NCBI GenBank assembly: GCA_028868335.1
Contig: JAGWUU010000002.1
Location: 1-38,767, forward strand
Direction of reading: 5' to 3'
Length of the DNA stretch: 38,767 nt
From: Sphingomonadales bacterium
GTDB lineage: Bacteria; Pseudomonadota; Alphaproteobacteria; Sphingomonadales; Sphingomonadaceae
The notes beneath the pieces were generated by a model, which worked only from the letters and a program-made list of their open reading frames with translations, searched no databases and had not been told where the DNA came from. Shown here in pieces: positions 35,504 through 38,767 of the stretch. Made by a program: the position numbers and the translations under genes. Every line of letters begins with the position of its first letter. Within the stretch, counting starts at the first letter, position 1.

Positions 35504-35535
35504 GAACCCCCTCCCGTGGAGGCGGGAGGGGGTTC
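35504..35535. terminator. 12-bp perfect hairpin between pyrBC and the SPOR gene
   Basis: GAACCCCCTCCC pairs perfectly with GGGAGGGGGTTC around an 8-base loop, seven bases after the dihydroorotase-like stop codon and between convergent genes. No strong T run on either strand. Confidence 0.8.
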
Positions 35536-35572: not shown

Positions 35573-37087
35573 TCAGCGGCGGGCAAGAGCGGGGCCTGCC
35601 GCGCCGCGCGGCGCGACGGCGGCAGTCTTGACGGCGGGCTTGACCGAAACCTTCGCGGCGGGCTTCTTGGCCAGAGCCAGGGCCGGACCGTTGGCGGCCT
35701 TGCCGTTGGGCGCAAAATGGTTTGTGGCGTAGGCGAAGCAGACACCTCCACGGGTCTTGACCGTTGAGCACATGCCCGAGGCCGAACGGGCGTCAAACCC
35801 GGCGGCAGCGACGCGCCAGAACTGCTTTCCGTGAACGGTCGCCTGGGTGATCGTCATGCGGAACTTGCGCAATTCGGGGTTCTTCGCGGCGAAGATGCCC
35901 CAGGCGCGGCGGGCGCCTTGCGAACTGGAGAAACTGCCGAGCTGGACCGCGTGACTGCCGGTAGCGGCGACCGAAGCGGTACGCGGACGCAGGCCCGGAC
36001 GGTGCGTAAGTTTGATCGAGGTGGCAACGCGGGTCGGCTTGGCTGGAACCGGAGTGGCCACGGCGGGCGACTTGGCAGCGGGCGCGGCGGCAAAGGCCGA
36101 GGCGAACGCCTGGTGCGGAGCGGGTGCTGGCTCCACCGTCGGAGCGGCGGGCGCGGCAACCGGTGCATATTGCGCCAGTTGGGCGGGCGTTTCGGTCCGA
36201 GCCGCCAGGGCTGGCGCTGCAACAGGAGCGGGAGCTGGAGCAGGCACCGCAGTGGAAGCAGCTCCGGCGGCAGGCAGTTCGCCATTGGCGGCTACTGTCT
36301 TGATTGCTCCGGTTTCGGCGGCAAGCTGCTCCTGGGCCGGGGAATCACCAAGCGCGAGGGCGCGGGGCTGGCCCGGATCATCGCGCAACGGGGCACGGAT
36401 CAGGCCGGCGATGCGAGCCTTGGCGTCTTCGGGCCGGGCGGTGCTGGCCCAGTCGCTCAACCGTGCGTCAAGCTGGTCGGCGGGAACGTCCTGCGCGGCC
36501 ATGACCCGCGCCTCTCTCCAGCGCCCATCAAGGGCGTAGGCATAGGCGAGGTTCTGGCGCAGTTTGGCAGAGCTGTCCCCGGCGCGAAGCTGGTCGGCAA
36601 GGATCGCGACGCCGCGGCTCGTTTCGCCAGCCAGCGCCATGGCAAGGCCAAGGTCGGACCCTGGGATGGCGTCGCGCCAGTCCTCCAGGATCGCCACCGC
36701 CTCGCGGTTGCGTCCAGCGGCGATGTCGGCAAGAGCCAGGCCCAGTGCGCTGCGGGCGCTGTTGTCGCCGAGCTTCATCGCGTCGTTGAAAGTCGTCGAG
36801 GCGGCATTGAAGCGACCGGCCTTGAAATAGGCCTGCCCCAGCACTGCGCGATACGAAGGCTCGCGCGGATTGGCGGCAACCGCCGCTTCGGCCAGTTCAA
36901 TCGCCCGGTCGAACTTGCCCTTGGACAACGCCTTCTGCGCTTCCGCCATGGTTTGGTCGGGCGTCGACTTGGCGACCGCGGAAACGCTCATCGTTCCGCT
37001 GGCCAGAACGGCGGCAGCGGCGACTCCGGCGATGCCGAGCGGCAGTCCGAGAACCTTGATCTTGCGGCTGAAGCGGTTGGCAGTCAT
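35573..37087 (-). CDS. TPR and SPOR domain envelope protein
   Basis: A 504-residue exported or membrane-anchored protein. An N-terminal hydrophobic segment (VLGLPLGIAGVAAAAVLASG) is followed by TPR-like repeats (residues 45-200; ALSKGKFDRAIELAEAAVAA, LGQAYFKAGRFNAASTTF). A Pro/Ala-rich low-complexity linker of about 130 residues follows. The SPOR domain at about 377-452 (HAVQLGSFSSSQGARRAW ... QFWRVAAAGFDARSAS) normally binds denuded glycan at the septum. A Lys/Ala tail closes the protein. The start at 37087 has GAGGGG eight to nine bases ahead. Downstream of, and co-oriented with, the ParA and RHH-like genes (gap 19 bp to the RHH stop), it suggests a division or polar function. Confidence 0.9.
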   Translation of the reverse strand: MTANRFSRKIKVLGLPLGIAGVAAAAVLASGTMSVSAVAKSTPDQTMAEAQKALSKGKFDRAIELAEAAVAANPREPSYRAVLGQAYFKAGRFNAASTTFNDAMKLGDNSARSALGLALADIAAGRNREAVAILEDWRDAIPGSDLGLAMALAGETSRGVAILADQLRAGDSSAKLRQNLAYAYALDGRWREARVMAAQDVPADQLDARLSDWASTARPEDAKARIAGLIRAPLRDDPGQPRALALGDSPAQEQLAAETGAIKTVAANGELPAAGAASTAVPAPAPAPVAAPALAARTETPAQLAQYAPVAAPAAPTVEPAPAPHQAFASAFAAAPAAKSPAVATPVPAKPTRVATSIKLTHRPGLRPRTASVAATGSHAVQLGSFSSSQGARRAWGIFAAKNPELRKFRMTITQATVHGKQFWRVAAAGFDARSASGMCSTVKTRGGVCFAYATNHFAPNGKAANGPALALAKKPAAKVSVKPAVKTAAVAPRGAAGPALARR

Positions 37088-37106
37088 GGGAAGCATCCCC
37101 TCTCGA

Positions 37107-37595
37107 TTAACGGGCTTTGCGCGGCGTCTTGCCGACCTGTTCGGCCAGCGCGACGACGTCGGGCAGTTCGGAAAGCAGGCGATCGATCGCGTCGGTCACC
37201 AGTTGCTGGGCGCTACGGCCCTTGACCGTGCAGGCCAGGCGCAGCTTGAGATGGCGTTCGGCATCGACCCGCAGCGTGAAGGCTGCGCGCCGACCGTCGG
37301 CCAGAGCGGAGCGCCGCTCGTCCGCAACCCTGCGCGCGATGGAACGCTGTTGACGCACCACCGCCGGCTCGTGTCCGTTCAATGCACCGGAATCGGGGTT
37401 GAGACTGATGACCTCGGCGCTGTCGCCATGTTCGTCCTCGTCATGGCCCATGTCGTTCCAGCCAAGGTCCTCGATCTGGCGGGCCAGCGCATCATGCTGC
37501 AAAGGGCCGAGTTGCGGCCGCATCGCGGGCCGCGCCCCGCCCTTGCGGGCAAGCAGGTTCGGGCTCAGCGAAGCAAAGGGTTTCGATTCGGCCAT
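37107..37595 (-). CDS. Ribbon-helix-helix-like protein, putative ParA partner
   Basis: A 162-residue protein without a clear named family. The N-terminal two-thirds is basic then acidic and probably disordered (DMGHDEDEHGDSAEV). The C-terminal 60 residues (AAFTLRVDAERHLKLRLA followed by SAQQLVTDAIDRLLSELP) have the strand-helix-helix pattern of a ribbon-helix-helix domain, as in CopG-type or ParG-like proteins. It lies 17 bp downstream of the ParA gene and 19 bp upstream of the SPOR gene. It may be the DNA-binding or adaptor partner that stimulates the ATPase. The start at 37595 (MAESKPFASL) with GTGGGGG upstream is preferred to the ORF-track start inside parA. Confidence 0.7.
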   Translation of the reverse strand: MAESKPFASLSPNLLARKGGARPAMRPQLGPLQHDALARQIEDLGWNDMGHDEDEHGDSAEVISLNPDSGALNGHEPAVVRQQRSIARRVADERRSALADGRRAAFTLRVDAERHLKLRLACTVKGRSAQQLVTDAIDRLLSELPDVVALAEQVGKTPRKAR

Positions 37596-37612
37596 GGCCC
37601 CCACGACTCCGC

Positions 37613-38332
37613 TTAGGAACCGGCGACCCGGCGACCGAAGCCACCAGCCGGACGATGCACACCCTGGATCGAGGAAACGCTCGTCGGCGCGGCGAATACT
37701 GTGCGGCGGAAATTCTTTTCCAGCCGATCCGAGATATAGGTCCACAGCGCAGTGACTTCCTGCGCCGAACGGCCATTGGGATCGACTTCCATCACCGTCC
37801 GCCCATCGATCATCGAAGCGGCAAAATCGGTACGGTGATGCAGCGTGATCGGAGCGACCGTGCCGTGCTGCGAAAGTGCCACGGCGGCCTCAGAAGTGAT
37901 CTTGGCCTTCGGCGTCGCCGCGTTGACCACGAAGATAAGCGGCTTGGCGGCGCGTTCGCACAGATCGACGGTTGCGCCGACGGCGCGCAGGTCGTGCGGG
38001 CTGGGACGGGTCGGAACGACGATCAGCTCCGCCACCGAAATGACGCTCTGGATCGCCATGGTGATCGCGGGCGGGGTGTCGATCACCGCCAACTTGAAGC
38101 CCTGCTGACGCAGAACCGCCAGATCGGCGGCAAGCCGCGCAACGGTAGTCTGCGCGAAAGCGGGGAATTCATCCTCGCGTTCGTTCCACCAGTCAGCCAG
38201 CGAACCTTGCGGGTCGATGTCGATGAGGACGACCGGACCCGCGCCAGCTCGCTGTGCTTGCACGGCGAGGTGCCCTGACAAGGTTGTCTTGCCGGATCCC
38301 CCCTTCTGCGATGCCAATGCCAGTACGCGCAA
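37613..38332 (-). CDS. ParA/MinD-family ATPase (TTG start)
   Basis: A 239-residue Walker-type cytoskeletal ATPase. The deviant Walker A with signature lysine (QKGGSGKTTLSGHLA), Walker A' (VVLIDIDPQGSLADWW) and Walker B (LAVIDTPP) are intact. It lacks the N-terminal helix-turn-helix of plasmid type Ia ParA, so it is like the short orphan ParAs (PpfA, ParC, VirC1) that position protein cargo. A C-terminal extension after ISDRLEKNF is Gly/Arg/Ser-rich. The start is TTG with GAGGGGGA six bases upstream and no in-frame ATG nearby. It is not beside parB or gidB, so it is not the chromosome-segregation ParA. Probable operon with the RHH-like and SPOR genes. Confidence 0.92.
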   Translation of the reverse strand: MRVLALASQKGGSGKTTLSGHLAVQAQRAGAGPVVLIDIDPQGSLADWWNEREDEFPAFAQTTVARLAADLAVLRQQGFKLAVIDTPPAITMAIQSVISVAELIVVPTRPSPHDLRAVGATVDLCERAAKPLIFVVNAATPKAKITSEAAVALSQHGTVAPITLHHRTDFAASMIDGRTVMEVDPNGRSAQEVTALWTYISDRLEKNFRRTVFAAPTSVSSIQGVHRPAGGFGRRVAGS

Positions 38333-38398
38333 AGCAAATCCCCCTCGAAAAATGCAGTAAACCCAATTGGAGTTGCACCGGGGGATCGCAGAACGTTC

Positions 38399-38414
38399 CT
38401 AATTTTGGGTTAAC
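38399..38414. promoter_or_regulatory. CtrA-like binding site in the ParA / Sel1 divergent region
   Basis: CTAATTTTGGGTTAAC fits the CtrA consensus TTAA-N7-TTAAC with one mismatch. It lies 67 bp upstream of the ParA start and 170 bp upstream of the Sel1-like gene; a second GTTAAC occurs near 38550. Confidence 0.45.
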
Positions 38415-38584
38415 GGCCGATCGGACAGATTGACGTAAATCCCCTCCCGGCACGCAGATTTTCTTTGCTAACGCCATCTTCACCATGCAAGTTTACCTGC
38501 ATTGTCCGCTGGACGGAGCCACGGTTCCGGCCCCGGGCAGGAGGGGGTCGTTAACAGCCAGCGCCGATGCAGGATTTTTTGCCG

Positions 38585-38767
38585 ATGGGTCGCTTTTTGC
38601 AAATTTCGTCTGCCAGTCTGGTTGCGGCACTGATTCTCGCCGCACCGGCGCGGGCGGATACCAAGGCCGGTGTCGACGCGTGGACCAGGGGGGACTTTCC
38701 TGCCGCCGTCCGCGCCTGGCAGGCCGAAGCGGGCAAGGGCGATGCTGACGCCCTCTATAACCTTGGC
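38585..38767 (+). CDS. Exported Sel1/TPR-like repeat protein (5' part only)
   Basis: Sixty-one codons before the window ends; absent from the ORF track because it has no stop. ATG 38585 is followed by a signal peptide (ISSASLVAALILAAPARA, cut before DTKAG). The mature protein starts with VDAWTRGDFPAAVRAWQAEA and KGDADALYNLG, which is the Sel1-like repeat pattern. Such proteins scaffold envelope complexes. AGGA lies 10 bases upstream; an in-frame ATG at 38567 is an alternative with a worse ribosome site. It diverges from the ParA gene across a 252-bp gap that contains a CtrA-like motif. Confidence 0.82.
   Translation, partial: MGRFLQISSASLVAALILAAPARADTKAGVDAWTRGDFPAAVRAWQAEAGKGDADALYNLG

Follow-up and report, generated by a model that had tools for sequence, protein, structure and literature searches.

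Organization of the locus

Orphan ParA ATPases are common, and cargos are known for few of them. One such ATPase is encoded near the end of a Sphingomonadales contig (C369; JAGWUU010000002.1, assembly GCA_028868335.1), the whole 38,767 nucleotides of which are called here the window. The contig belongs to a 3.05-Mb, 85%-complete metagenome-assembled genome (G000), and the named organisms closest to its source are Novosphingobium. The parA gene is followed by the gene of a ribbon-helix-helix (RHH) partner and by a TPR-SPOR gene, with intergenic gaps of 17 and 19 bp, respectively, so that the tight packing of these three genes, reported in a first-pass annotation made from the sequence alone, was borne out. 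A Sel1/TPR gene diverges from parA and is truncated by the contig end at position 38767, while convergent pyrBC genes lie downstream of the TPR-SPOR gene, beyond a terminator-like hairpin (Table 1).

Table 1 Features of the parA region in the window
Feature	Position	Strand	Remarks
parA (ParA-type ATPase, 239 aa)	37613..38332	-	TTG start
RHH partner/adaptor of ParA, 162 aa	37107..37595	-	ATG start
TPR-SPOR gene, 504 aa, predicted exported	35573..37087	-	TPR and C-terminal SPOR
Divergent Sel1/TPR gene, 5' part (67 aa), predicted exported	38567..38767	+	Interrupted by contig end
Promoter-region element TTAACCCAAAATTAG (TTAA-N7-TTAG)	38399..38413	-	Conserved, 81 bp upstream of parA
GC-rich terminator-like hairpin	35504..35535		Between operon end and convergent pyrC

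The ParA ATPase and its partner

The parA gene carries GGGGGA upstream of its start codon, and a TTG, GTG or ATG is found at the start position in all 80 named relatives. The protein begins with MRVLALASQKGGSGKTT and, at 239 aa, is of type Ib size; like type Ib partition ATPases, it has a deviant Walker A motif (KGGSGKTT) and lacks an N-terminal helix-turn-helix (HTH). In the alignment across families, in which the sequences are 70–72% identical, K10, K15, D38 and D85 are invariant, and the C-terminal tail GFGRR is conserved. Domain matches were obtained with AAA_31 (7e-13), with ParF (4dzz; E 4e-15, residues 1–193) and with NCBIfam NF041546 (ParA_partition), the last giving 165.2 bits and E 1e-48 against a curated cut-off of 180 bits, which is not reached.

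Three other assignments were rejected. With MipZ the protein shares membership in the ParA superfamily, occurrence in Alphaproteobacteria and a proposed division-related role, but the MipZ model PF09140 matches only its nucleotide-binding segment (residues 2–54, 1e-4), and the genome has a separate, true MipZ on contig C102 (E 1e-115). A chromosomal parABS locus was dismissed as well, because the next gene is not of the ParB family and the genuine ParB is encoded on contig C309 beside its own parA; the earlier statement that this is not the parAB locus therefore stands. Phage origin was discarded on the basis of a single distant phage match with 38% identity.

The partner carries an N-terminal motif, SLSPNLLARKGGARPAM, at aa 9–25, with the near-invariant consensus SLxxxLLARKGxAxPA. 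Residues S9, L10, L14, L15, A16, R17, K18, G19, A21, P23, A24 and M25 of this block are invariant in the alignment of 42 partners, as are L44, G45, W46, N47 and D48 of a second, acidic and Trp-containing motif, EDLGWNDMG, at aa 42–50 (LGWNDMG at window positions 37446–37466). The second motif occurs only in Sphingomonadaceae and Erythrobacteraceae and is absent from other families of the order. A linker of variable length, predicted with low confidence by AlphaFold2, leads to a C-terminal RHH domain (aa ~104–143; F106, T107, L108, R109 and H115 invariant in the same alignment). The RHH assignment is weak by sequence, the match to Pfam ParG (E 0.014) being sub-threshold; at the same time, the AlphaFold2 model has two RHH-type helices (112–125 and 129–143), and its top PDB match, itself weak (prob 0.82, E 0.31), is ParG 1p94. 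From the model, DNA binding by the partner is plausible.

The published ParB and ParG partners act on ParA via an unstructured N-terminal peptide of basic character, which contacts ParA at its dimer interface (PMC12462528, PMC7308502, PMC10241942), and by analogy LLARKG may be the ParA-acting peptide of the present partner.

Conservation of the gene cluster

Synteny was read at 80 named Sphingomonadaceae and Erythrobacteraceae parA loci. The partner, TPR-SPOR and Sel1-SPOR genes were each found beside parA at 79 of 80 loci and all three at 77, and the four-gene set is also present in other families of the order; the grouping is consequently not due to chance. Conservation across sphingomonads, on which the first-pass annotation had staked its proposal, was thereby confirmed. 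The cluster also outlives rearrangement, as follows from one genome (G028) with the altered order ParA, partner, Sel1(-), TPR-SPOR(+). The pyrBC genes accompany it at 65 of the 80 loci, which lie on contigs of up to 2.1 Mb and in this respect do not resemble plasmid-borne type Ib systems, and it is kept in families where pyrBC is not adjacent. Among the loci examined in the order, every ParA had a SPOR gene close by, except where the contig ended too early to show one. The ParA–partner pair is a core chromosomal feature of Sphingomonadales.

A variant was seen at locus L221 (1444–3111; G016, contig C21), where a single frame joins ParA residues 1 to ~88 to the TPR-SPOR protein and the remaining ParA and the partner are missing; this may be a natural deletion or a misassembly.

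Both flanking proteins are predicted to be exported, and a SPOR domain above the Pfam cut-off was found in the TPR-SPOR protein of the window and in an intact homologue of the Sel1 protein. The window TPR-SPOR protein has an N-terminal signal or hydrophobic segment (hydropathy 2.08) and matches TPR_19 (9e-10) and SPOR (1e-6, 28.9 bits; cut-off 21). The first-pass label of the divergent protein as Sel1-like was confirmed: intact homologues match Sel1 (2e-11) and carry SPOR at their C-terminus as well (5e-11, 43.2 bits). In other families of the order the SPOR proteins have lipoprotein-type signals.

Plasmid relatives and the region upstream of parA

The nearest plasmid ParAs are 53–65% identical to that of the window. 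Several of them stand beside rep genes, and the following gene encodes an RHH-like protein with the same N-terminal motif (SLTSGLVAKKGQAAPA, DLTGLVATKGSAAP and similar). This common motif indicates that the chromosomal pair is a relative of type Ib (ParF/ParG-like) partition systems. The disordered, charged N-terminus ascribed to the RHH-like partner in the first-pass annotation was thus correctly recognised, and its basic motif turned out to be common to plasmid type Ib partners. In an unrooted tree of 64 ParA rows all Sphingomonadales ParAs form one clade (98/91), the sister group of which includes Comamonas and Deefgea plasmid ParAs.

With type Ib plasmid cassettes, among them ParF/ParG of TP228 and the pairs on Comamonas, Deefgea, Xanthomonas and Acetobacteraceae plasmids, the sphingomonad locus shares a short ParA without HTH, an adjacent RHH partner with a flexible, basic conserved N-terminal motif, and the order ParA then partner. 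Unlike them, it is chromosomal, core and syntenic; its partner is about twice as long (162 vs 78–115 aa) and has a second motif; it has no iterated centromere; and its neighbours are two SPOR genes rather than a rep gene. As both the iterated centromere and the plasmid features are missing, it was not classed as a plasmid partition system.

At 65 of 81 loci an element TTAAC-N6-TTAG (in looser form TTAA-N7-TTAR) was found within the 250 bp preceding parA, chiefly at −63 to −111, against about one locus of 81 expected from first-order Markov shuffles with relatedness ignored. No copy was found upstream of parA outside Sphingomonadaceae and Erythrobacteraceae. A 20-base version of the element, with three mismatches allowed, occurs once in the genome. 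It is most simply interpreted as a conserved promoter or operator element.

The kinship with plasmid partition pairs, this strongly conserved element and the invariant DNA-contact strand of the RHH domain (FTLR) are in agreement with a chromosomal centromere system, in which the RHH protein would recognise a site within or close to its operon, ParA would segregate or position that region and the SPOR genes would be bystanders. A centromere of this kind was sought at 38330–38570, where no repeat array was found beyond chance-length matches, and the element is not iterated. Linkage to the origin or terminus was rejected too, because the distance of the locus to parB, as a fraction of the chromosome, ranges between 0.04 and 0.42 in complete genomes; besides, parAB and mipZ already serve chromosome segregation. 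A centromere system is therefore considered unlikely.

The window copy of the element, TTAACCCAAAATTAG, is one base away from the full CtrA motif, TTAA-N7-TTAA (PMC4287350, PMC9437464). The genome contains only four TTAAC-N6-TTAR sites, where the reversed control has 18, and two of the other three were read, with no recognisable CtrA target in the surrounding open reading frames (ORFs). CtrA control of the operon is accordingly offered as a suggestion only. The location of the element between the divergent genes, and the precedent of ParG, which represses its own operon as well (PMC7308502), would also suit a purely regulatory module, with the RHH protein and ParA controlling the operon and the divergent SPOR gene through an operator or CtrA box and moving no cargo. 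However, regulation alone requires neither so conserved a ParA ATPase nor the membrane-anchored SPOR partners described below, and the failure to find the element upstream of parA outside two families speaks against it as well; such a module is considered unlikely.

Partners in other Alphaproteobacteria

In an evenly drawn sample of 289 Alphaproteobacteria genomes, ParA was detected at E≤1e-40 in 48, and 40 of the loci were retrieved for reading of their neighbourhoods. In most of these the gene after ParA starts with an LLARKG-type motif, and most of the partners carry a C-terminal RHH-like domain. The strict motif pattern was matched by 28 of 35 partners, a proportion biased upward by the preference for motif-bearing ORFs in picking, and by none of ~959 other proteins in these loci, the lone background match being a partner whose end had been called differently. 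The specificity of the motif is unaffected by this bias, which touches the partner count only.

Seven loci from other Alphaproteobacteria encode a partner in which a transmembrane (TM) segment and a periplasmic SPOR domain accompany the motif. Four of these TM-SPOR partners were run against Pfam SPOR and gave 5e-7 to 8e-15, and the remainder match a custom SPOR profile. Three genomes (G145, G048 and G216) have RHH-type and TM-SPOR-type partners together, and the ParAs of the TM-SPOR type require one or two origins in the unrooted tree. An operon in one genome (G299, contig C51; L094 7274–9438) encodes ParA, a motif-TM-SPOR partner and a motif-bearing DivK paralogue, the N-terminal extension of which repeats the partner start (LFARKGAASAEGFA vs LIVRKGAASARGFA). 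This paralogue matches Caulobacter DivK (1m5t) at E 1.8e-44, the next other receiver reaching 1e-19; a second DivK of this genome, on contig C8, matches without the extension. The single DivK case suggests that the LLARKG motif could be a transferable ParA-binding tag. Taken with the TM-SPOR loci, the motif is probably a portable ParA-binding module that in some cases is attached to division-site components.

The neighbours of the sphingomonad ParA resemble FtsN, DamX, RlpA and RgsS in having a C-terminal SPOR domain and being exported or membrane-anchored; the TM-SPOR partners of other orders differ from these proteins by their cytoplasmic ParA-partner motif. A described SPOR protein with such a motif was not found in a non-exhaustive search of the open-access literature.

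A proposed positioning system

The interpretation that we favour, with slightly better than even confidence, is that a type Ib-related ParA–adaptor pair, core to the chromosomes of Sphingomonadales and encoded between two septal-wall-binding SPOR proteins, positions a cargo via a ParA gradient. It is built on the observed gene content, synteny, motif conservation, plasmid kinship and reuse of the motif on TM-SPOR and DivK partners. ParA-ATP would coat the nucleoid by non-specific binding, and the N-terminal LLARKG motif of the adaptor would bind the ParA dimer and boost ATP hydrolysis, creating a moving ParA gradient. The cargo, for which a DNA site or nucleoprotein complex is the most likely candidate, would be carried by the C-terminal RHH dimer. 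In sphingomonads, ParA and adaptor are probably expressed together with the exported TPR-SPOR protein, the Sel1-SPOR gene diverging from theirs. SPOR domains recognise denuded septal glycans (PMC6895207). Both proteins are expected to attach to denuded peptidoglycan where the cell constricts, so that the place of the cargo would most likely be set with reference to the division site or the new pole. The septal link is drawn from two kinds of SPOR association: in sphingomonads the genes cluster, and other orders have SPOR fused to the partner.

Several observations weigh against this interpretation. The SPOR proteins of the window lineage are predicted to be exported without a cytoplasmic part; a direct bridge from ParA to the wall is therefore not encoded, and the link would require an extra membrane factor. 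Outside Sphingomonadales, no RHH-type locus was found with a SPOR gene immediately beside it. In three genomes without orthologous ParA (G025, G029 and G032) the SPOR genes remain adjacent and divergent, so the SPOR pair does not depend on ParA, and Novosphingobium organovorum has cleanly lost the RHH partner while keeping an intact ParA. In this last species (L236 978–3370; L153) the TPR-SPOR gene directly follows ParA.

The SPOR pairs without ParA and the ParA without partner, as well as the general synteny of the region implied by the co-travelling pyrBC, would be expected if the SPOR neighbours and the ParA pair were functionally independent, sharing an inherited neighbourhood while the pair positions an unrelated protein cargo. 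Such independence is nevertheless regarded as rather improbable: the cluster persists where pyrBC is not adjacent and after rearrangement, and in other orders SPOR is fused to the ParA partner itself. As for the idea of the first-pass annotation that a nucleoid-gliding ATPase is coupled to a division-site envelope complex, the joining of the motif to TM-SPOR or DivK in relatives favours it, whereas neither a direct bridge in the window nor a strict dependence of the SPOR pair on ParA was found; such coupling in the window lineage is plausible but indirect.

Among chromosomal positioning systems, McdA/McdB of carboxysomes and PpfA/TlpT and ParC/ParP of chemotaxis arrays likewise consist of a ParA outside parAB and a partner with a basic, disordered N-terminus. 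The window system differs from them in the RHH domain of its partner and in its SPOR neighbours, with no carboxysome or chemotaxis genes adjacent. In the open-access literature, no publication on this ParA–SPOR operon was found in titles and abstracts, nor any paper on such a ParA-like ATPase for Sphingomonas.

More broadly, and only tentatively, an alphaproteobacterial adaptor family may be proposed, in which one portable ParA-activating motif, carried by RHH, TM-SPOR or DivK proteins, would couple the nucleoid ParA gradient to the septum and also to signalling in the cell cycle. The sphingomonad operon would be the core chromosomal version of this family, its SPOR effectors being separate proteins. 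In related bacteria the partner is fused to a wall-binding domain, a hint that nucleoid and division site may be connected in a way that has barely been described; if this reading is true, the motif-SPOR partners would connect nucleoid position directly to the site of wall constriction in Alphaproteobacteria. The sphingomonad ParA belongs to the core gene set of a large bacterial order, and sequence searches with its partner motif offer a way to identify partners.

Additionally, two other kinds of genes were noticed in the surveyed loci. The partner of L096 and a gene of L111 (6712–7233) have an LLARKG/LLVPKG start and a C-terminal domain without Pfam match. RHH-type loci outside the order (L097, L103–L105, L107, L108, L110 and L116) contain a PAS_5-like cluster gene with an ASLxxxxxRR N-terminus, and these genes are possible further members of the ParA module.

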